Below are positions 1-38,392 of a stretch of DNA of 49,826 bases, one piece after another. The first letter of the stretch is position 1, and every line of letters begins with the position of its first letter. Location of the stretch: positions 1 through 49,826 of IMG/VR virus record IMGVR_UViG_3300031223_000012. One strand, 5' to 3'. The DNA is from a virus. The notes beneath the pieces are model-generated. The model was not told the origin of the DNA. It did not search any database and saw only the letters and a list, made by a program, of their open reading frames with translations. The position numbers and the translations under genes were made by a program.

Positions 1-533
1 GACAATTTAGTAACAGCAGACAATTCAGCAGTTTCAAGTTTAAAACTAACAAGCTTTGTTTCTGGTTTAGGCTTGAATATTTGACTGATTAGTTCAGGTT
101 CATATTCAATAAATGTTGTTTCTGCCCTTGCACAAAGTACTGTAATTGCAAGTATAGTTCGGCCGTTTGCATCTTTTTTAGAAAGATTTATTTTCTTAAC
201 AGTACCCAGTACGTGTTCGATTTCCATGTCTACTAGTTGACCAAAATGACCCAGTACCTGTTTACTAAAACTATCACCTTTATATAGTGAACATTTTAGC
301 TTAGGTATTGTGTTGTAAGTTGGATCATTATCAGCAAGACCTGTTAACTTTGCTAGTGGTAGCTGCCACATTTTATATATTGAATCTGCTTCGTTGTTGT
401 TAATTCCAGACAGTACGCTGTTTTCAATAGAAAAGTTTAAAATCTCAGATTTTTTAACTGACATTGAAATTGCTAGGTATTTGCGTAAGGTTTCAGTATT
501 TACGTTACATAGTGTAACCTTTTGTAATTCCAT
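1..533 (-). CDS. Partial protein, possibly sliding-clamp-like
   Basis: The reading frame is open from an ATG at 531-533 to the window edge, so the C-terminus is missing. I translated it by eye; it begins MELQKVTLCNVNTET. The roughly 177 visible residues alternate short beta-like stretches with polar turns and have no catalytic motif I recognise. It lies downstream of the DNA polymerase and dUTPase on the same strand. In T4 the sliding clamp (gene 45) belongs to the polymerase cluster, so a gp45-like clamp is a reasonable guess from size and position. The sequence match is too weak to assert it; an unrelated replication accessory protein is equally possible. Confidence 0.35.
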   Translation of the reverse strand, partial: MELQKVTLCNVNTETLRKYLAISMSVKKSEILNFSIENSVLSGINNNEADSIYKMWQLPLAKLTGLADNDPTYNTIPKLKCSLYKGDSFSKQVLGHFGQLVDMEIEHVLGTVKKINLSKKDANGRTILAITVLCARAETTFIEYEPELISQIFKPKPETKLVSFKLETAELSAVTKL

Positions 534-623: not shown

Positions 624-1178
624 TTATTTTTCTCTTTGAAAAGTATAAATATCACCAATATAAAGTCCTATTTCTACTGCATCAATGTCTAATTTCGCCG
701 CCGTAACAGTACCGTCTTCGGTAACCCATATTGAACCACCAACATTAACAAATTTAGTAAGTTCAGGCATATTGCCTAATATTTCTTCAGTTACTTTTGT
801 TTCTTCACCACTAAACAGTTTAGTTGACTTAATCTCAATTGCATCAGTTGCTGTTACATCGACAGTTGGTGCGTTAACCTTTGCCTTTGCCTTTGTTGTT
901 TTTTTCTTTTTAGGCTCACTCTTTTTGTGTCCAACAAAACTTTTAAGTAGTGACTTAATGTCTATGACAATTTGTTGTCTACCCATAGTTGGTTGGCTAA
1001 TTTTATCTAGTCCAGCAATTGCTGTTAACATTTTTGCTTCGTTTTTTTCTGCAACGGCGGACACAAATGCTTCTTTCACTTTTAGTAATGCACCTGCACC
1101 AGAAAGTCTAACTAGTCTGTTTTGTATTAGTTCAGAAAACTGTTTTAGTGTAACGTCTTTACCTTTTACTTTGCCCAT
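624..1178 (-). CDS. Hypothetical protein with basic linker
   Basis: 184 residues, unrecognised. The N-terminal ~80 residues look helical. A Lys-rich stretch follows (about residues 84-100, including KKSEPKKKK), then a beta-rich C-terminal half. The basic linker in the middle suggests nucleic acid contact or a flexible tether between two domains. It sits between dUTPase and a partial clamp-like gene in the replication cluster, so a replication accessory role is plausible but unproven. Confidence 0.6.
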   Translation of the reverse strand: MGKVKGKDVTLKQFSELIQNRLVRLSGAGALLKVKEAFVSAVAEKNEAKMLTAIAGLDKISQPTMGRQQIVIDIKSLLKSFVGHKKSEPKKKKTTKAKAKVNAPTVDVTATDAIEIKSTKLFSGEETKVTEEILGNMPELTKFVNVGGSIWVTEDGTVTAAKLDIDAVEIGLYIGDIYTFQREK

Positions 1179-1265: not shown

Positions 1266-1841
1266 TTAGAATTGTCCTGTGCTACCAAATGAGCCTTGCC
1301 CTCTACTAGAAGTTGACTTAAATAGATTTTCATCATTTTTGACTTCTTGCCATTCAGTTAGCATTACAGGTACAAGCACAAATTGTACGATTTTTTCACC
1401 ATAAAATATTAGTTGACTGTCTGGTGAAGTATTGGTTAGTGAAATGTGCAATTCGCCTTGGAAATCTTCATCTATAACAGTTGCAGCAACATCAAGTTGT
1501 CTTTTAGATGCTACACCACTTTTGTTGAATGCAATTAAGGCGAGCGCAAGTTCATCTGAATACAAAAAGCCATCGTGATCTTGTAGATTGCATGTAATGC
1601 CTGACGGTATCATTACATGACTATGACCCTTCAGCAAAAAATAGTCATTATCGTAATCATGAAATTCGACAGAAGCCGGATTGGACCATTCTAACTTTGT
1701 CCTAAATTCGCTAACAATGTCATTGTTTGGCACATAGAAATCAATACCAGCACTACGATCAACTAGACCAAACATTTCGTCTTTGTGGGCATTGCCTCTA
1801 GTTGGCTGCTTAACATCTCTTACTCTTTTATATTGTATCAT
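1266..1841 (-). CDS. dut: dUTPase (trimeric type)
   Basis: Hydrolyses dUTP to dUMP and pyrophosphate, keeping uracil out of phage DNA and supplying dUMP for dTTP synthesis. At 191 residues it is slightly longer than a typical trimeric dUTPase (about 150). All five motifs are visible: AGIDFY at 31-36, KSGVASK at 107-113, ATVIDEDFQGEL at 120-131 (Phe replaces the usual uracil-stacking Tyr), GEKIVQFVL at 148-156, and the P-loop-like RGQGSFGSTG at 180-189. An extra segment of about 35 residues lies between motif 1 and the core. Its start overlaps the end of the 68-aa gene by 14 nt, implying translational coupling with the polymerase operon. Confidence 0.93.
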   Translation of the reverse strand: MIQYKRVRDVKQPTRGNAHKDEMFGLVDRSAGIDFYVPNNDIVSEFRTKLEWSNPASVEFHDYDNDYFLLKGHSHVMIPSGITCNLQDHDGFLYSDELALALIAFNKSGVASKRQLDVAATVIDEDFQGELHISLTNTSPDSQLIFYGEKIVQFVLVPVMLTEWQEVKNDENLFKSTSSRGQGSFGSTGQF

Positions 1842-2034
1842 GACTACGATTTTTGTTATTAAGAAAAGACATGTTTTCCCAACCTGAGTCTGAACATGAA
1901 ACCCAGTACCGTTGTCTAACTGTTACACGTTCTAGCCATCTAATCTCAAGCGGTACAATCACAGGCAGCCAGGCAAAGAATGTACGATCTCTAATGTCAT
2001 TTTCTTTTGGTTTCTTTTTAGTTTTTAGTCTCAT
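1828..2034 (-). CDS. Small hypothetical protein between polymerase and dUTPase
   Basis: 68 residues, Lys/Arg- and Trp-rich, beginning MRLKTKKKPKEND. It starts 4 nt after the polymerase stop and overlaps the dUTPase start by 14 nt, so the three genes look like one translationally coupled unit. Its repeated basic and aromatic residues (RDRTFFAWLP, WLERVTVRQRYW) suggest a compact beta protein, perhaps a polymerase or DNA partner. It contains no polymerase motif B or C and so does not supply the missing half of the upstream polymerase. Confidence 0.65.
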   Translation of the reverse strand: MRLKTKKKPKENDIRDRTFFAWLPVIVPLEIRWLERVTVRQRYWVSCSDSGWENMSFLNNKNRSHDTI

Positions 2035-2038
2035 AAGT

Positions 2039-3541
2039 TTAGTCTTTAGGTATTCTTAGTGAACGCTTGCTAAGCTCTTGTTCTATTGGCCCTAGTGCAT
2101 CCCTATAAATGTTTAGCATTAAGTCTTTGTATGCATATCTTGCAGATAGCATTTTATTCTCAATACGTTTTAAGGTGTAGTCTTTATCGTTTTTGTAGTA
2201 GTTACCTAATACGCTAACATAAAAACCTGTCTTAATAAGTTCTTCCTTGTGTTCTTTGCTTTCTACTTTACCAATAAAGTTTTCAAAGGACATATTGTAT
2301 GACTGCATTAACCTTGGGTACAGTGCTGAAAAGTCAGAACAGACACCAAACATAACAAACTTTCTAGTTGGAGACTTAACATAGCCACCTTCAAATGATG
2401 TTTTTTCTTTTTTAACGAAAGGTTCACCGTTAATTTTATTGTCTTCATATAGTTCATCCCAGCATAGTGCATGAACTTGTGCTGTTACTTTTGTGCTATC
2501 CCACAATGATGTTTTAGTTCTGAAAACTAAAGAGTCAATGGCAGCAGTGTAATTTTTCTTTTTGTGTATAATTTGCATGTTAATTGTATCAACTGCACCA
2601 TACAATAAAAATCTATCTATTGGTCCATCGTAAAGGTCTTTGTAACTGCCTTCATAGTCAACCTTACCAACTGGAAATATTTTCTTTGTAACATAGTCTA
2701 GACCGACAGATAATAACGGCGCCAAGTCCCAACCCCATTTTTCTACCAGTTGCATGTAATCCATAACATATCTATGCTTTGGCCATTTGTTAAAGTCAGA
2801 CATTTCACCTGTAGGTGAACCTTGTGCCATATCAACGCCAATTTTTGGACATCTGTTGTTAAGATATGGAACATCAAATCGTGCACCATTCCAAAAAGCA
2901 ATACAATGCAATTTCTTGTTAACAAGTGACCAAAAATAATTAAGCATTTCGGCTTCTGTATCAAACTTAATATGACTATATGCAAGTCTTTCAACTTGCG
3001 CCCAAACCCAATCTGCATCCTTATAGTGTTCGTTAACAAGGTTTTCAATGTGTGCAATTTGTTGATCATCTTGCATTGCCCTACTGTTAGTTGTTAACGT
3101 AACAGTTCTAAGATTTGGTGCTGTTATTTGAATGCTGTCAATTGGAAATGCTGCCTGCTGTGGACTTGGGAAGATTTCGCCGTCTTTAATGTCAATTTCA
3201 ACATCGACCATATACAGCTCAGGCTGTCGAAATGCAAATATTTGATCCCTTAAGGGTTCCGGTATTGATTGTGTTAAGAATTCACGTTTTTCATCAAAGT
3301 CTAGGCGCCAACTAGAAATGCGTTTAATTGGCAGATCATCTTTAAAATGACGCAGGACTGGTTCTACATCAGGGTCTGAAGCATCACAAATTGCATAGTC
3401 ATAGCTACCAAAACCATTAACATCTCTAATGTCAAATTCTTGAAGCTTAATATGGCCGTCTTCTGCAATGTAAGAAACAGATAAGTTATTACCGTGTTGT
3501 GATGTGTCTATAAGCATATATAATTTTTTATAATTGAACAA
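2039..3541 (-). CDS. 43: T4-type family B DNA polymerase, N-terminal half (exonuclease and first part of palm)
   Basis: Replicative polymerase of the T4 gp43 kind, present only as its first 500 residues. Exo I is at VDVEID (D113, E115), Exo II at WNGARFDVPYLNNR (D223), Exo III at YGAVDTIN (D318), and palm motif A at SDFSALYP (D403). In T4 gp43 the matching residues are D112/E114, D219, D324 and D408, so the alignment is almost residue for residue. The ORF stops at 500, inside the region corresponding to the T4 fingers, before motif B (K-x3-NS-x-YG) and motif C (DTD). No continuation lies downstream in any frame of this window. Some T4-like phages have a split gene 43, so a separate second subunit elsewhere in the genome is the simplest explanation. 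Confidence 0.9.
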   Translation of the reverse strand: MFNYKKLYMLIDTSQHGNNLSVSYIAEDGHIKLQEFDIRDVNGFGSYDYAICDASDPDVEPVLRHFKDDLPIKRISSWRLDFDEKREFLTQSIPEPLRDQIFAFRQPELYMVDVEIDIKDGEIFPSPQQAAFPIDSIQITAPNLRTVTLTTNSRAMQDDQQIAHIENLVNEHYKDADWVWAQVERLAYSHIKFDTEAEMLNYFWSLVNKKLHCIAFWNGARFDVPYLNNRCPKIGVDMAQGSPTGEMSDFNKWPKHRYVMDYMQLVEKWGWDLAPLLSVGLDYVTKKIFPVGKVDYEGSYKDLYDGPIDRFLLYGAVDTINMQIIHKKKNYTAAIDSLVFRTKTSLWDSTKVTAQVHALCWDELYEDNKINGEPFVKKEKTSFEGGYVKSPTRKFVMFGVCSDFSALYPRLMQSYNMSFENFIGKVESKEHKEELIKTGFYVSVLGNYYKNDKDYTLKRIENKMLSARYAYKDLMLNIYRDALGPIEQELSKRSLRIPKD

Positions 3542-17050: not shown

Positions 17051-18064
17051 TTAAATTTGTGCAACTTCCCAAGCCCAGGCGCTCGCCATTGCATCTGCTA
17101 GGGTTAACTTTGGTGACCAACCAAGTACCTGTTTTGACTTAAGAGTTTGGGCCCAAGCTTCCTGTATATCGCCCTGTCTTCTTGCTACTTTTTTGTACTT
17201 TAGCTTAAGTCCACTAACCAGTTCAAATGCAGTAATAACTTCCATAACAGTACTGCCTACTCCTGTACCAATGTTGAATTGTTCAAACCTATCCCTTGGG
17301 CTTGACGCTTCGACAAGTCTGTTCATTGCTACTACGTGAGCATCAGCAAGGTCAACAACATGTATATAGTCTCTAATAGCAGTACCATCTCTTGTTGACC
17401 AGTCATCGCCAAATACTGAAAGTTCATCACGTAAACCAATTGCAGTCTGTGTGATAAAAGGTACAAGGTTTTGCGGTGTACCAATTGGCAACTCTCCAAT
17501 CTTTAGGCTGCTATGTGCGCCAATTGGGTTAAAATACCTAAGCGCTATGGCACTAAAGCCCGGTCTTGCATTGCACAAGTCTTGTATTATTTCTTCTCCA
17601 ATCTTTTTTGTGTTACCATAAGGAGACTGGGCAGGCTGTATAGGTGCCGATTCTGAAATTGGCAGCTCAAGGGGTTGACCATAAACTGTGCAAGAAGAGC
17701 TAAATATTAATCTCATTTTTCTGTGTTCAATTTGGCTTAGCAAGTTGACCAGTCCGGCAACATTGTTGTCGTAATACTTTAGTGGGTCATGCACACTTTC
17801 ACCTACAGCTTTAGCCGCAGCAAAGTGAATAACACCATCAATTTCAAGTTCTTTGCTAAAAAAGTCAACAAGGGCTGAACGGTCCCTAACGTCTATTTGA
17901 TTAAATTGAGGCCTTATGCCAGTAATGTCACTAATACTGTCAAGCACAGACATAGAAGAGTTTGACAAGTTGTCAATGATGATAACAGCATAGCCGACTT
18001 CTTGCAGTCTAACAACTACATGTGAACCAATATAGCCTAGTCCTCCGGTTACCAATATTTTCAT
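17051..18064 (-). CDS. galE: UDP-glucose 4-epimerase
   Basis: 337 residues, the usual GalE length. It interconverts UDP-glucose and UDP-galactose using bound NAD. It has the extended-SDR NAD motif TGGLGYIG (6-13), DNLSNS at 31-36, catalytic Ser in FSSSCTVYG (121-129), and the Y-x3-K pair in SPYGNTKK (Y149, K153), followed by ALRYFNPIGAH and DGTAIRDYIHVVDLA. In a phage it may remodel host surface sugars or provide a sugar nucleotide for DNA or protein glycosylation; no glycosyltransferase is visible here to decide. Its ATG overlaps the end of the gene at 18061 by 4 nt. Confidence 0.95.
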   Translation of the reverse strand: MKILVTGGLGYIGSHVVVRLQEVGYAVIIIDNLSNSSMSVLDSISDITGIRPQFNQIDVRDRSALVDFFSKELEIDGVIHFAAAKAVGESVHDPLKYYDNNVAGLVNLLSQIEHRKMRLIFSSSCTVYGQPLELPISESAPIQPAQSPYGNTKKIGEEIIQDLCNARPGFSAIALRYFNPIGAHSSLKIGELPIGTPQNLVPFITQTAIGLRDELSVFGDDWSTRDGTAIRDYIHVVDLADAHVVAMNRLVEASSPRDRFEQFNIGTGVGSTVMEVITAFELVSGLKLKYKKVARRQGDIQEAWAQTLKSKQVLGWSPKLTLADAMASAWAWEVAQI

Positions 18065-19077: not shown

Positions 19078-19617
19078 TTATTTTTGTTCTTTTCCTATTT
19101 TAGTCATTGGTGTCAATTTTGGCTTTCTGCCTGCCAGATTATTAATAAGATCAAAGTCGATAGCATCGTTTGGTTTACTCTTGTTGCCACGCTTTTTGTC
19201 AGAAAATAGACCATGTCTAGATATAAAAGCAAGAAAAAAGTTTTCTCTAAGTTCTGCCAATTCTTCTTTATGTAAAGACCTGTAAAAGATATACCATTCT
19301 CTAACGTTAATAAATTCTTTTGCTGTTAGTTCAACCTCTATGCGCTTGACACCGTTTTTGAATGTCGCAAAAACTGTAAGTTCTGTTAGCATTGACAATA
19401 ATTGCATTAGCAAACGTCTGTCTTCTGGTGTTTTAAATTGAAACTCGTATTTGCTAGTTGCATCATCGTCAGACATGACACGGTCAGGGTTAATACCGTG
19501 ACGTTTACAAACTCTTTTTATTTTGTCTAGTGCGTTAGCAATTTCTGCCTCAGTAGTACCACCTCGCCATAATGAGACTAGTTTACCTATTTTTTCTAAC
19601 TCTTTGCCTTGTTCCAT
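19078..19617 (-). CDS. DUF2786-like hypothetical protein
   Basis: 179 residues. The first ~45 (IGKLVSLWRGGTTEAEIANA, then KIKRVCKRHGINPDRV) match the pattern of the DUF2786 N-terminal helix pair (K-L-L-x-L-A ... E-A-x-x-A-x-x-x-A-x-x-L-x-x-x-H-G), found in phage and bacterial proteins of unknown role. A helical middle and a basic tail follow. The start codon abuts the ligase C-terminal gene stop (shared base at 19617). Assignment is by pattern only. Confidence 0.45.
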   Translation of the reverse strand: MEQGKELEKIGKLVSLWRGGTTEAEIANALDKIKRVCKRHGINPDRVMSDDDATSKYEFQFKTPEDRRLLMQLLSMLTELTVFATFKNGVKRIEVELTAKEFINVREWYIFYRSLHKEELAELRENFFLAFISRHGLFSDKKRGNKSKPNDAIDFDLINNLAGRKPKLTPMTKIGKEQK

Positions 19618-20444
19618 TATGCCTTTGCTTTTAATACAGCCATGCCGTATGTTATTGTTTCAATACCAAGTGACTTGGCTTGTTTCATTTTTGATGATGT
19701 AGATTGTAGGTTATCTGTAATCAGTACCTGTGCATCTTTAAGCTTGTCAACCTCAAGCCATGTTACCAGTTCAGACTTAAACAAGGCCTTTGTTTTGTAA
19801 CCAAAACTTTTTGGTGAACCAGTCATTAAAAACTTTACAGTATTGGCAGCTGGTGCCGTGTCTTCCACTGGCAAGTGTATAGTGTAACCCATATTACGTA
19901 ACCTCATTTGCATGTTGTTAATACGATGGTCTGAATTTTCTAATTCTTCGAGTACTTTGCCTGCCATACTATCGAAATTGTAACCAATACCTGCTAGTTT
20001 CTTAGACCATTCTTTTGCAATTCGGTTACCACAATTATTAATGCCTAGTGACCTAATGATTCTAAATAGTTCAAAGCCTTTTGTTCTCCATTTTAGTATG
20101 CCATGTAGCAGTAATTCTGTTTGTCTTGGTCCAAAGCCAACCTCATTCAATACTTTTGCATTTACAATTACAGGATCGAAAAAACCTATTGGACTTTGTA
20201 GTAATGTATCAACTTGCATTAATCGCTTAAATGATTTACCGCTAAAGCCTCGTATTGGGAAGCATGCCATAAAATGATAAAATTGTAGTCTTTGCATTGC
20301 TTGACCATCATCAATAACCATTGCATTGCAACCTTTAACTATTGCCATTTCTGGTAAGTTAAAATTAGACCTAAGTTGTGCATATGTAATGTCTTTACCT
20401 GCAATTCTTGCAATATCTGTTGGTTCTGGTATCTCTTGAAGCAT
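19617..20444 (-). CDS. NAD-dependent DNA ligase, C-terminal part (HhH and BRCT)
   Basis: 275 residues that look like the DNA-binding half of bacterial LigA. Residues ~50-170 form the helix-hairpin-helix region (FPIRGFSGKSFKRLMQVD, LNEVGFGPRQTELLLHGI, LGINNCGNRIAKEWSKKLA). Residues ~200-275 form a BRCT domain (FLMTGSPKSFGYKTK, STSSKMKQAKSLGIETITYG). The Cys4 zinc finger that normally precedes the HhH domain is absent. The catalytic half is encoded separately at 20803-21852, with one small gene and a promoter-like element between them. The two products presumably assemble into one ligase. Confidence 0.8.
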   Translation of the reverse strand: MLQEIPEPTDIARIAGKDITYAQLRSNFNLPEMAIVKGCNAMVIDDGQAMQRLQFYHFMACFPIRGFSGKSFKRLMQVDTLLQSPIGFFDPVIVNAKVLNEVGFGPRQTELLLHGILKWRTKGFELFRIIRSLGINNCGNRIAKEWSKKLAGIGYNFDSMAGKVLEELENSDHRINNMQMRLRNMGYTIHLPVEDTAPAANTVKFLMTGSPKSFGYKTKALFKSELVTWLEVDKLKDAQVLITDNLQSTSSKMKQAKSLGIETITYGMAVLKAKA

Positions 20445-20461
20445 AATATTTATTTATTGGT

Positions 20462-20512
20462 GTTATATAAATATATAACAATTAATTGTTATATGACACT
20501 AATTGGTCACTA
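20462..20512 (-). promoter_or_regulatory. Palindromic promoter-like element, copy 4
   Basis: Palindrome at 20462-20479 preceded by ATTTATTGGT, then a divergent right arm (ATTGTTATATGACAC). It gives the ligase C-terminal gene its own upstream element, separate from the catalytic gene. Confidence 0.6.
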
Positions 20513-20800
20513 AGTTATTAACAATAAAGTCTTTTTTAGTTCTTTTGTAAATGTTGCTGTGATTAGTTCTTGGTGTGAACCTTGCGTCATTGTTGCTGGA
20601 TGGAATACTTCAATTTCATTACTGGTACCACAATCATAGTAAAGTACAGGTACACATTTTGTTTTTATGACGTCTGGATAGCCCAGTTCGCCTGGGCACC
20701 AAATGCTAAGCTGTGTCATAACAATTCTGTAGTCTCGTTTAGTCAGGTACAATTGCATTTCTTGTTCTGTAAAATGTAACATGATTGATGTGTGTTCCAT
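20510..20800 (-). CDS. Hypothetical protein between the two ligase genes
   Basis: 96 residues beginning MEHTSIMLHFTEQEMQLYLT, then a beta-rich middle with two cysteines (TKCVPVLYYDCG). It starts 2 nt after the catalytic ligase stop, so the two are co-transcribed. It does not carry the missing ligase zinc finger. Function unknown. Confidence 0.5.
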   Translation of the reverse strand: MEHTSIMLHFTEQEMQLYLTKRDYRIVMTQLSIWCPGELGYPDVIKTKCVPVLYYDCGTSNEIEVFHPATMTQGSHQELITATFTKELKKTLLLIT

Positions 20801-20802
20801 AG

Positions 20803-21852
20803 TTATGCTTTTTTGATCATTGGGATTATGTCATTAGCCAGTGTAACTGTAACATTTGATCCAATTTGGATATCGTTAACAACCAGGTATTGAAGGTGAT
20901 GACCTGATGCTCTTTGTATTTTTCTACCATCAACTATGATTGGCATAAAATAAACTACTGGGGTCCATCTTCCTGTCTTATTCATATTCCATTTAATATC
21001 AGTAACGGTTGACTGCATAGTTGGTGCCTTAAATTTAATAGCAACTGCATGCTTAGGATATGTACCGTTATGTAATACCTTTTTGACACCTATTGTGTTA
21101 AAAACAATACCATCTGTACCAAATTGGTACTCTTTACGTCTTTGTGCCATACTGGCAAATGATGTTACTAATTGGTCCGGGGTGGTGCAATTGGTTATTT
21201 CTTTACAGGTAAATTCAGGAAACATGTCTAAGTCTAATATTTCACCAGTTGGTGTAACAGACTCTAACATAATTGGTATAAGATCATGTTTTCTAACATC
21301 ATCTTTGTTAATGTCATTAACTATGCCAGCAACCAGATTTCTAGAGTGTGAATACTTATCTGAATATTTACTTTCGAATACTCTTTGATTCATAACCATT
21401 TCAAAACGAATACCAACATGGTCTTTGTAACCAATACATTGTGGAAATAATGAAGCCAATTTTGCATGGACATTAACACCCATGTTGCCATCACCTCTGG
21501 TGGAAACCATTTCTAGTTTACCCATTTTGTAACTGGCTTCAATTGCAACACCATCATATTTCCAACTGAGTTGGCCTGGACCAATACGATCAAATAAGGC
21601 CTGTGCAGTTTCATTTGACATACCATTTGTTTCCACTTTAGTCTTAGAAAGACTTAACATTCGATGGCCATGCTTAACCTTTCTTTCTGTTGATACCTCT
21701 TGGTAACCAACCGTTGGATCAAAACCTTGTTCTATAAGTTCATCTTCTAAAGAGTCAAATTCATCATCTGATATAATAGCTTCTCCTTGATAATATGCAT
21801 CTTTTGCTATATAGTATAGATCAACTTTAGCCTTGTAGTCTGATTGTGACAT
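20803..21852 (-). CDS. ligA: NAD-dependent DNA ligase, catalytic part (Ia, adenylation, OB)
   Basis: 349 residues. Domain Ia is recognised by YYQGEAIISDDEFDSLEDEL; the NMN-binding region is followed by HRMLSLSKTK. The adenylated lysine is K98 in KYDG, followed by STRGDG (R119), FGTDGIVFN and AIKFKAP. The OB domain follows, with KTGRWTPVVYFMPI and the IGSNVTVTLANDIIP end. It lacks the zinc finger, HhH and BRCT domains, which (minus the zinc finger) are in the downstream gene. It seals nicks using NAD. Many T4-like phages use ATP ligases instead. Element copy 5 lies 14 nt upstream. Confidence 0.9.
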   Translation of the reverse strand: MSQSDYKAKVDLYYIAKDAYYQGEAIISDDEFDSLEDELIEQGFDPTVGYQEVSTERKVKHGHRMLSLSKTKVETNGMSNETAQALFDRIGPGQLSWKYDGVAIEASYKMGKLEMVSTRGDGNMGVNVHAKLASLFPQCIGYKDHVGIRFEMVMNQRVFESKYSDKYSHSRNLVAGIVNDINKDDVRKHDLIPIMLESVTPTGEILDLDMFPEFTCKEITNCTTPDQLVTSFASMAQRRKEYQFGTDGIVFNTIGVKKVLHNGTYPKHAVAIKFKAPTMQSTVTDIKWNMNKTGRWTPVVYFMPIIVDGRKIQRASGHHLQYLVVNDIQIGSNVTVTLANDIIPMIKKA

Positions 21853-30784: not shown

Positions 30785-33700
30785 TTATTTTCTGTATTTT
30801 AAGTTTGAACCGCCTGTGTCAGGAAAGACTTCTATAACCTTAGAGTCCTTAAATGTTAGCGTGTGGTCAACAATGACAACCTGGCAGCCCTTACTAATAG
30901 TTGCTATAAATTGCTGAACCAATTCTTTGTAATTTCTTGCCTCGTATGTAAGGTCTTTGCCGTCGTTTAGCTTACCAGATATTTCATCAATCATTAAGAC
31001 ATTAAATTGTTTGCTACCGTTTAACTGCCTCATAATATTAATCAAGGCCAGGGCTATGACTGTCGTTTGCATACCTGATACAAATTGTACTGGTCTCATA
31101 ACATCTTGCTTAAGATCGATAAATTTAAGCTCCAATGTGTCTTGATCGAATTGTAGTCTAAAGTCTACGCCTTCAAGGCTTTCGTTTAGCTTAGTATTAA
31201 TTAGACCAACAATATGTGCAAATATGTACTGAGGCAGGCCATGTTTACCAAGCAGTCGTTTATACAATTTAAGACTTGATTCAACTAGTCTCCATTGTCT
31301 AACTTCTCCTATTTTGCCGTTAAGTATTTCAACCTGTTGAATACCTGATGCCTTTTCTTGCGCGAATGCGGCTAGTGTTTCATTAACTGACCTTGCCTGT
31401 TCTTTCATGTCACCTAGCAACCTGTCTTGCGTGTCTATCTTTAATTGTGTTTCTTTATTTTCTATTGACCATCTTAGCCTTTGTGTAAGCAGTTGTTGTG
31501 TACCCCTTTCTTTTTCATTGTCTACCAAGTGAAGCTTAACCGCATCATTAAGTTCCTGTATGTTGTCATCAATTGTGGCTAGTTCTGCAAGCTTGGCTTC
31601 AATTTTAGCCATATCAATCTTAATGTCTATAACTGCCTGTTTTAGCAAGGCCTCTGACCCCTTGTGCTCTTCAAGTTCTTGAGTAACCTTTACTATTTGT
31701 GACTTTGCTTCAATAACACGATCGTGTTGCTTAAGTTTTGCACCTAGTTCTGCACCAAAGTGAACAACTTCAGCAGTAAGAGTCTCTAGCTGTTCACTTT
31801 GGTCTGCTAACTCCTTTGTTATTGCCTGACCCATTGCAAAAGCCTGTTGCCATTCTGAAATATTAGGTACTGTTTCACCTAAAAGTAAGGCTTTAAGCTT
31901 TATCGACTCTTTGTTATGCTCTGCCTGTATGGCTTTGTTTAGTTCAATCTTTGTCTGACACTGTGACCAATCTGCCTTTATGGTGTCAACCTTTCCGCCT
32001 AGCAATAGCATTTCTGCTTCTTGGTCTACTATTGACTTCTTTACTGTTACTATTTGTTTGTCAATTGCCTCTTGTGCACTTTTTGATTTTGTTTGCTTAC
32101 AGGTTAGGCAAACCTTAGATGTTACTAAGTCAGCAACCTTTTTTTCTGCACGTTCTATCTTTTCAGTAATTGTCTTTTTTGCCATTGCGACTTCTGCGGC
32201 TACAATTTTTATTGCTGACAGTGCATCATTAAGACCTGAGCCAACTGTAATAGACTTGTTGAGTAATTCATCAACTGCATTTTTGCTACGCTGTACTTCA
32301 TTTAACCAAGAAGCCACGTGGGCTGACTTTTTGCCTTTAAGTTCTAGTATTAATTCTCTCTTTGCTGAAATTGACTTTTCTTGTATTGCTATTTCACTAT
32401 TTAACTCAAACGTAACGTCTTTAACTATTAGTACTGCATCAGACTTTTTAGCATCAATAGTTTGCCTTATTGACTCTGCCCTTTGTTCACTTTGTTCTAC
32501 CTTATGCCTAGCGTTAACAAGTTTAAGTTCTAAGGCATGACTACCGTCTTTTAACTTGTCAATTGACATTGAATCTTTGGTTGCCAGTAAGAGGTCTAGA
32601 CGAGCCTGTTTTTCAGTAATTGTATCCTGTCGCCTTGCCACATTTGCGTTAATGACTTCTATTTGTGCGTCTATAATGTGCGTCTTGTCTACCTGATGCA
32701 GTTTAGAACGTAACCCGTTTGTGTCTTTAGTCTTCGCGTCTACCTCTGTCTCAATTGCCTCTGCTTCTGACCGCTTGGCCTTGGTATCATGCTCTAAAGT
32801 TTGAGCTTTGGTTTCAATCTGTGCTATTTGTTCGACAATTTGATTTACTGTCATTGCAGGTTTAGCCAACGGACCAAGCTTTGCAGCCTTAACATCTTCT
32901 ATTTGACCCAGTAGGTCTGTCATTGCATCAAGACCAATAATGTTTAAGAATCTAGCAGACAAGTCTTCAGGCTTCATATTAATTAGACGATCGAAAGAAA
33001 AGCTGTTAATGAATACAAGTTGCTCTAACTCTTGAAAAGTAAATAAACTGTCCATGTATTCCACAACTTCTTGTGTGTTATCAGTTGTAAGGTTAGACGA
33101 AGTTAGGGTTAATGACATCGTTGGCGTACCAGATAGGTTGTCTATCCAATTTTTAGCAAATATGTCTTTTTTGCCTTTTTTCCAAGAACGGGTTAACGTC
33201 TTAACCAATTTGTGTGGTTTACCGTTAACAATAAACTTAAGTTCACCACTAACAGTGTCAGCTTCTGAATGATCATTAAAATACAGGGCGTAGTTATATC
33301 GTTTGTTTCTTAGATTTTGACTACTACTTATTTGATCTTTAGTCATCCATTTTAAAAAGTCAAACAGTTTTGTTTTGCCAACACCATTGGCCCCCGTTAT
33401 CTTAGTAATTGGTGCATTACCAAATCGTATTTGTACATCTTTTGTAAATGACATAAAGTTACTAACAGTACCGCCGATAATGTCAATGCTTAATTTTTTG
33501 TTAGTCAAGTCTGCAGCAAGCAATTGTTCTTCAAACATTTCATATATCATTGCTGCTGATGCTTCACGATCTTCTGTTTCAATTGTTGTTGACTGTTTAA
33601 CAATAGTGTCTATGTACTTTTTTGAAATCTTTAGCATTTTGTCCTTATCAACTATTTGTGATAAGTCAGCATATTCCGTAGTATCAACCTCAACACTAAG

Positions 33701-34759
33701 GACATCTTTGGCCCAGTCTGTTTCAACAGAGCAAGTATACTTAGACTTAAAGTGTCGAACTAGGGCCTCTTCATTTTTAGTAAATTCACTAAGGCCAGAT
33801 TTGCAAACCAGTCTAATCTTATTTAGTTCTGTAGCCTCAATACTTAGTAATGCAGTCATAGTTTCATAATCAAACTTGTCAGACAGGTATATCGTATGCC
33901 TACTAACAACCTGATTAAGACTAAAAAATTCAATATCAACAACCCGGTTAATGTCAGTATCAAAAGTCAAAATGTTGTAGCCATGCTGACAGTTACCCTT
34001 TACTGTCAATTTGTGACCATCGTAATAGTCACCTTCACCAAAATTACGCTGTACTAGTGAACTACAATATGTAAATGTCTTGTCACCGTCTCTAACAATG
34101 TCAGGTGCATGAATATCACCAGCAAGTACTGTTGGTGCCTGAAAGTCTGCCATCGTAATTTTGTAATTTTCGAAATGCTTACTAGGTTGACCGTCAAAGT
34201 GTTTGCAACCCATAACTGGATCGTGAAACAATTCAATAACAGAAGATGTTTTTACTGACTTAATGTCATTGTCTACCCAAGGGCTATATGCTGGTTTTAC
34301 GTCAGCCATACTATGCTTGGTCCATTGTGACCAAACTGCCCAGGTAATGTCAAAAGTAGTGTCCTCGTAGAGTCCGGTTTTTTGGTAATATGATATTTTA
34401 GGTGACTTTACTGCAGTAACAGCAAGATCAATAGCATCGGTTAAGTTTCTTTTTTCTGTGCTAGTCGTTAGTGCAATACCTCTTTGTCTAACATCGTGAT
34501 TCCCAGGTATGATGATGACTCTTTTGCAAGTGGGTAAAATAGCATGTAAGTGTTGAGTAAACAATTTTAACTCTTCAGCATTAGCATCTTGAAATTCAAA
34601 AATATCACCAGGAATAACTATAATGTCAGGTTGCATCCTTTGAGCAACTGCTTCGATGTCTTGAAGACCTCTTGCAAATTCATCATATCTTTGTGCACCA
34701 GTACCGCTGGTTCTAACTTCTATTTGAATATCTGCGTAATGCAACATTTGTATTTTCAT
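30785..34759 (-). CDS. Fused SbcD-SbcC (gp47-gp46, Mre11-Rad50) recombination nuclease
   Basis: 1324 residues in one open frame. Residues 1-~420 are the Mre11/gp47-type metallophosphoesterase: HYADIQ (D10, with Q12 at the usual His), PGD (50-52), GNHD (86-89), GDIH (214-217). Residues ~425-1324 are the Rad50/gp46 ATPase: Walker A GANGVGKT (456-463), long coiled coils, a zinc hook CLTC near residue 882, the signature FVSGMQTT, and Walker B VLMIDEIS. In T4 these are two proteins; here they are one. The complex resects DNA ends for recombination-dependent replication and degrades host DNA. The Gln at the first metal-ligand His position is unusual. Confidence 0.9.
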   Translation of the reverse strand: MKIQMLHYADIQIEVRTSGTGAQRYDEFARGLQDIEAVAQRMQPDIIVIPGDIFEFQDANAEELKLFTQHLHAILPTCKRVIIIPGNHDVRQRGIALTTSTEKRNLTDAIDLAVTAVKSPKISYYQKTGLYEDTTFDITWAVWSQWTKHSMADVKPAYSPWVDNDIKSVKTSSVIELFHDPVMGCKHFDGQPSKHFENYKITMADFQAPTVLAGDIHAPDIVRDGDKTFTYCSSLVQRNFGEGDYYDGHKLTVKGNCQHGYNILTFDTDINRVVDIEFFSLNQVVSRHTIYLSDKFDYETMTALLSIEATELNKIRLVCKSGLSEFTKNEEALVRHFKSKYTCSVETDWAKDVLSVEVDTTEYADLSQIVDKDKMLKISKKYIDTIVKQSTTIETEDREASAAMIYEMFEEQLLAADLTNKKLSIDIIGGTVSNFMSFTKDVQIRFGNAPITKITGANGVGKTKLFDFLKWMTKDQISSSQNLRNKRYNYALYFNDHSEADTVSGELKFIVNGKPHKLVKTLTRSWKKGKKDIFAKNWIDNLSGTPTMSLTLTSSNLTTDNTQEVVEYMDSLFTFQELEQLVFINSFSFDRLINMKPEDLSARFLNIIGLDAMTDLLGQIEDVKAAKLGPLAKPAMTVNQIVEQIAQIETKAQTLEHDTKAKRSEAEAIETEVDAKTKDTNGLRSKLHQVDKTHIIDAQIEVINANVARRQDTITEKQARLDLLLATKDSMSIDKLKDGSHALELKLVNARHKVEQSEQRAESIRQTIDAKKSDAVLIVKDVTFELNSEIAIQEKSISAKRELILELKGKKSAHVASWLNEVQRSKNAVDELLNKSITVGSGLNDALSAIKIVAAEVAMAKKTITEKIERAEKKVADLVTSKVCLTCKQTKSKSAQEAIDKQIVTVKKSIVDQEAEMLLLGGKVDTIKADWSQCQTKIELNKAIQAEHNKESIKLKALLLGETVPNISEWQQAFAMGQAITKELADQSEQLETLTAEVVHFGAELGAKLKQHDRVIEAKSQIVKVTQELEEHKGSEALLKQAVIDIKIDMAKIEAKLAELATIDDNIQELNDAVKLHLVDNEKERGTQQLLTQRLRWSIENKETQLKIDTQDRLLGDMKEQARSVNETLAAFAQEKASGIQQVEILNGKIGEVRQWRLVESSLKLYKRLLGKHGLPQYIFAHIVGLINTKLNESLEGVDFRLQFDQDTLELKFIDLKQDVMRPVQFVSGMQTTVIALALINIMRQLNGSKQFNVLMIDEISGKLNDGKDLTYEARNYKELVQQFIATISKGCQVVIVDHTLTFKDSKVIEVFPDTGGSNLKYRK

Positions 34760-37645: not shown

Positions 37646-38392
37646 TTAGCCTTTTATGAATTTTTCGTATGCTCTATTTGTGCTTTTGCTAGGTCTAAAG
37701 TCTACATTTTTGTCTGCAACTACTTTTGATGCAATTGTAAAGCCGTATTTATCCTGTAGCTCTTTTAGCATTATATGTGCTTCTGCTGTGTCTTTTAGCC
37801 ACATAATGTCGATGTCTACTGCTATGGTGTATGGTTTGTATAGTACTAATGATGATATGTCCTCCATACATTGTTTCATAGCAGAAGTTTGTTTACTGTT
37901 TACACGAAGTGGCATGTCTGTGCCAATTATATACGATGCTGCAGCAATAACACCATATAAAGAGTTGAGTATGTATCTTGCTACATAGTATGCTCCAGCG
38001 TTTTCTTGGACCTTTAGTATTTGTATGTTGTCTAGTAGCCAAATATACATTTTGTCAAAATTTGGTCTGTTTGTTTCTAATAATTTGTTGATAAACATGT
38101 GCCTAAATATCGTAGGGTACATGTAGTTGACATCAACGACAAGGTGATTGTCTGCTGTTGCAAGTCTGTTACGTGTAAAGTCATCTAGCCGCATAGGATA
38201 TACAGGCATCATAGTACTGTTATGTTCAGCGGTTTCTGACATATCCAAACCTAGTGCCTTTGCTACATCTGTATACAGGGCACCAAATGGCTTTGTTTTT
38301 ATTTTAGTGCCATTTTTGACTAGGAAAGTATGTACGTGTCTGTCTAGTGCTTTGACCACTTTGTCGATTATTTCTTGTTGAATTTCATTCAT
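37646..38392 (-). CDS. Miniature family B DNA polymerase palm protein
   Basis: 248 residues carrying three palm motifs in order: motif A VVDVNYMYPTIFR (85-97, D87), motif B RYILNSLYG (139-147, matching K/R-x3-N-S-x-Y-G), and motif C AVDID (191-195; D193, D195). A later RAYEKF stretch may match the K-K-x-Y region. There is no exonuclease domain and only ~42 residues separate motifs A and B, so fingers and thumb are minimal or absent. It is distinct from the truncated polymerase at 2039-3541, which already has its own motif A. It could be a small polymerase, a relic, or a non-catalytic factor. Motif similarity is seen; activity is unknown. Confidence 0.7.
   Translation of the reverse strand: MNEIQQEIIDKVVKALDRHVHTFLVKNGTKIKTKPFGALYTDVAKALGLDMSETAEHNSTMMPVYPMRLDDFTRNRLATADNHLVVDVNYMYPTIFRHMFINKLLETNRPNFDKMYIWLLDNIQILKVQENAGAYYVARYILNSLYGVIAAASYIIGTDMPLRVNSKQTSAMKQCMEDISSLVLYKPYTIAVDIDIMWLKDTAEAHIMLKELQDKYGFTIASKVVADKNVDFRPSKSTNRAYEKFIKG

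Follow-up and report, generated by a model that had tools for sequence, protein, structure and literature searches.

The window, that is the whole stretch of DNA analyzed here (49.8 kb), is a complete IMG/VR record and constitutes a linear fragment. The following features were found at its left end; pol-N and pol-C denote the N- and C-terminal halves of the DNA polymerase, respectively.

3 to 533, minus strand: very probable sliding clamp of the PCNA fold, N-terminal ~60%, cut by the contig end; homologue of PTm1 ORF-237
624 to 1178, minus strand: ORF of 184 amino acids, no assigned function; no convincing Pfam or PHROG match
1266 to 1841, minus strand: dUTPase (PF00692, E = 1.2e-10); at the same place in PAU (gp106)
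1828 to 2034, minus strand: conserved small phage protein of 68 amino acids (phrog_11031, E = 2.5e-10), directly after pol-N
2039 to 3517, minus strand: pol-N, N-terminal half of a split family B DNA polymerase, 492 amino acids (phrog_2062 match, 48% identity to PTm1, invariant motifs)

The initial annotation had described the ORF at 2039–3541 on the minus strand as a DNA polymerase ending within the fingers. This ORF indeed comprises 500 amino acids when read from the TTG at 3541, whereas the start homologous to that of its relatives is the ATG at 3517. We found that pol-N combines the 3'-5' exonuclease with motif A of the palm and the first helix of the fingers. The exonuclease residues D113, E115, N218, D223, Y314, and D318 as well as motif A (D403/SALYP) are present in the correct order. 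Because these residues are invariant compared with four relatives, pol-N appears to be functional. Pfam searches matched PF03104 (E = 1.3e-6) and PF00136 (E = 2.3e-8), the latter only across profile positions 36–140 of 453, and the T4/RB69 polymerase can be aligned only as far as about residue 494. According to the alignment to T4 gp43, the protein terminates at the fingers tip (~505–515 in T4), ahead of motifs B and C, which bears out the earlier view that only half of a polymerase is encoded here. The half-length polymerase family phrog_2062, in turn, covers pol-N end to end (positions 4–500 of 502, E = 1.4e-69). Judged from its sequence, pol-N is thus the N-terminal half of a T4-type family B DNA polymerase (PHROG 2062). 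Also as annotated initially, the gene is followed by the ORF of 68 amino acids and the dUTPase gene; by its sequence, the former is no polymerase remnant.

A reading frame that stops ahead of motifs B and C would be expected if the gene were genuinely broken by a nonsense mutation, a frameshift, or a sequencing error, leaving the polymerase truncated, and the initial annotation had considered this alternative. IMG/VR was scanned with pol-N. While a single-sequence scan of viral contigs returned no loci, the alignment-based scan yielded 80, in all of which the pol-N ORF is 458–515 amino acids long and stops at the homologous place. Moreover, the last residues of pol-N can be aligned with PTm1 and PAU, and the gene that comes next is the conserved, unrelated 68-amino-acid gene and not polymerase sequence in another frame. 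A broken gene is therefore very improbable. The other alternative of the initial annotation, a remainder encoded as a separate gene elsewhere, is strongly supported by the separate C-half genes of the relatives and by the gene order described below.

The second polymerase half had been reported as missing from the window, and our searches agree with this. A tblastn search of the window with the C-halves of four relatives gave a best E value of 1.5, and with a 46-row C-half profile, run at maximum sensitivity, no hit was better than E = 0.57. As the record is a linear fragment, this absence says little about the genome. One candidate within the window was the 248-amino-acid ORF at 37646–38392 on the minus strand, which by eye contains strings resembling motifs A, B, and C (DVNYMYPT, R-x3-NSLYG, and DID, respectively). 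It had no match in Pfam, PHROG, phage, or PDB searches, scored below zero with the pol-C profile, and was aligned by hhalign over 12 columns (1.5%), while its single-sequence AlphaFold model was uninformative (pLDDT 37). As pol-C, it would duplicate motif A and be too short to include a thumb, and we consider this assignment exceedingly improbable.

We also searched for sequence beyond the window. An exact search for contigs overlapping its left end found none, and a contig scan based on the dUTPase returned only relatives at 35–43% identity and no sister contig. Via the ORF at 37.6 kb, the sister contig IMGVR_UViG_3300031224_000021 (42339 bp) was found, which is 99.98% identical over window positions 18034–49826 and carries an identical copy of this ORF. 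It extends the window only rightward, by 10.5 kb, and hence carries neither polymerase half.

The organization of the relatives indicates where pol-C might be located. Pol-N is 48% identical to its homologues in the Tenacibaculum phages PTm1 and PTm5 and 32% identical to that of the Sphingomonas phage PAU; homologues also occur in pT24 and MA9V-1. In PTm1, PAU, pT24, and MA9V-1, which we inspected individually, a second DNA polymerase gene is located 1.2–2.4 kb downstream of the N-half, and the C-halves of the relatives contain KxxxNSxYG and DTDS. A C-half was identified 2.0–5.6 kb downstream of pol-N in 50 of the 80 IMG/VR loci. Among the remaining 30, 27 have too little downstream sequence (0.4–6.2 kb), and three with ~10 kb have the C-half elsewhere in the same record, approximately 12, 17, and 36 kb off. 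Similarly, the N-half ends at 476–515 amino acids in Lak-C1, LR756500, LR756501, and LR756502, with the C-half elsewhere in the record. Pol-C was thus found in every relative's record that has enough sequence. In several loci, intein-like halves separated by other DNA interrupt the C-half gene directly at DTD|S (L101 and L106 in LR756500, L105 in Lak-C1, and L002 in PTm1).

The closest correspondence is to PTm1 and PTm5 (ORF-236 with ORF-239/241), which share with the window a pol-N of the same length and the downstream clamp homologue, and in which a separate C-half follows. In PTm1, an annotated intein with a VSR-type endonuclease gene divides the C-half further, whereas that of the window's virus is not visible. 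PAU (gp105 and gp110), pT24, and MA9V-1 have the order pol-N, clamp, pol-C, and in PAU a dUTPase gene lies between the halves as it does in the window. In contrast, identity to these three phages is 27–32%, and the other genes between the halves differ.

The assignment of the clamp is based on structure prediction for its homologue. The ORF at 3–533 is 34% identical to PTm1 ORF-237 (E = 4e-27), with ~100 residues missing in the window. The gene is annotated as hypothetical; Pfam returned no match for it and PHROG none that was convincing. The full-length PTm1 homologue was modelled by AlphaFold with a pLDDT of 89.7, and the model has a PCNA fold according to Foldseek (E = 4e-12) and VIA-align (Z = 18.9, 232 residues, 3.3 Å). 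The two-domain PCNA fold was hence found for the full-length PTm1 protein, the window copy itself being truncated; an hhalign comparison to gp45 was weak (probability 44%). Given the fold of the PTm1 copy, the gene preceding pol-C very probably encodes the phage's sliding clamp. It lies immediately upstream of pol-C in all 50 IMG/VR loci that have a C-half, and the gap between the two genes ranges from -54 to 168 bp in 48 of them; it amounts to 707 bp in L012 and, with a homing-endonuclease-like gene in between, to 1104 bp in PTm1. Three further contigs (L060, L076, and L082) likewise stop in or at the clamp gene and lack a C-half.

Together, these data suggest, with a probability of about 0.93, that the T4-type replicative polymerase of this virus consists of two separately encoded polypeptides; that the genome contains pol-C is deduced from its relatives. 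Since the ORF at the left end is the clamp gene, which precedes pol-C in 50 of 50 loci, pol-C should begin ~0.3 kb beyond position 1, right after the truncated gene. It would comprise ~400 amino acids and supply the thumb, motif C of the palm (DTDS), and the second fingers helix, which includes motif B. All in all, pol-C almost certainly lies just past the contig's left end, although direct adjacency to the clamp gene is likely and not certain because in some relatives a distance of 11 kb to hundreds of kb separates the halves. A distant pol-C would resemble the situation in the 640–735 kb phages and in Lak-C1, in which pol-N is found at 162–164 kb and pol-C at 391–394 kb (~230 kb apart); LR756501 and LR756502 are similar. 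Against such an arrangement, pol-C follows the clamp gene within 5 kb of pol-N in all of the nearest relatives (PTm1, PAU, pT24, and MA9V-1), and the window retains the order from pol-N to the clamp, making it improbable.

Under the preferred reading of two polypeptides with pol-C next to the clamp gene, pol-N and pol-C most likely form a single functional polymerase by folding together, which would run on the adjacently encoded clamp, because the chain is interrupted in a surface loop, the fingertip. By analogy, 43A and 43B of phage 25 co-purify and are active (PMC2988022), and reassembly of the two chains is the most likely mechanism in this clade. T4/RB69 gp43 shares the family B architecture and motifs with the window but is one chain of ~900 amino acids.

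Other T4-like phages also have split polymerases. In Aeromonas phage 31.2 (43A/43B), the aligned break is at the same fingertip position as in the window. In the Aeromonas phages 25, 44RR, and 31.2 and the Acinetobacter phage Apostate, however, the clamp gene is located upstream of both halves and not between them, and the tree suggests a separate origin of their 43A/43B genes. In this tree of 28 N-halves (IQ-TREE, LG+C20), 18 clade members including Lak and other huge phages, all of them split (18/18), group together with support of 100/100, while Aeromonas 31.2 and Acinetobacter Apostate are placed with the unsplit T4 and GEC-3S. The split requires three changes on the tree; a single change is allowed by none of 200 bootstrap trees, and at least two are needed to accommodate the well-supported branches. 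The three changes may represent one gain and two losses. As the split T4-like members are surrounded by unsplit phages on the tree, it is simpler to assume that this fingertip break originated more than once, and the split of the window's clade would then be one old, clade-wide event, separate from those in Aeromonas and Acinetobacter phages.

Extending this to the whole group, PTm1/PAU-like, Lak, and 460–735 kb huge phages probably have no single-chain replicative polymerase, PolB having been obligately two-chain since the clade ancestor, with the clamp gene directly before the C-half in most sampled members. If true, this position could couple clamp and polymerase synthesis. The apparent truncation is no cause for alarm: the fingertip split is a stable, clade-wide state that has probably arisen more than once in phages, which suggests that the fingertip of family B polymerases is a naturally tolerated break point. 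Two polymerase genes have already been annotated in individual genomes, and the PTm1 record reads 'split DNA polymerase', while a jumbo-phage review (PMC7824862) calls the polymerase of this group a classic enzyme of family B. We did not find the clade-wide extent of the split or the identity of the clamp stated in the open-access papers covered; the latter provides a name for the gene that is listed as hypothetical in PTm1, PAU, pT24, and MA9V-1.

Several additional features were observed in the window. Thirteen proteins encoded on the minus strand between 22391 and 44293 share an N-terminus like MKSLSTHITESF, reminiscent of the T4 capsid-targeting leaders that are cut by the prohead protease. 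The near-palindrome TGTTATATAAATATATAACA occurs in eleven mostly intergenic copies inside longer repeats, with none expected by chance (9524, 12861, 13454, 20461, 21869, 24091, 36833, 39613, 41102, 42068, and 44618); these are perhaps promoters or regulator sites. An NAD-dependent DNA ligase with only the adenylation and OB domains is encoded at 19617–21852 on the minus strand. Two genes past it, a separate ORF of 275 amino acids resembles by eye the missing HhH/BRCT part and has no Pfam match. Finally, an SbcD-like nuclease and an SbcC-like ATPase (T4 gp47/gp46) are fused in one ORF of 1324 amino acids at 30785–34759 on the minus strand.
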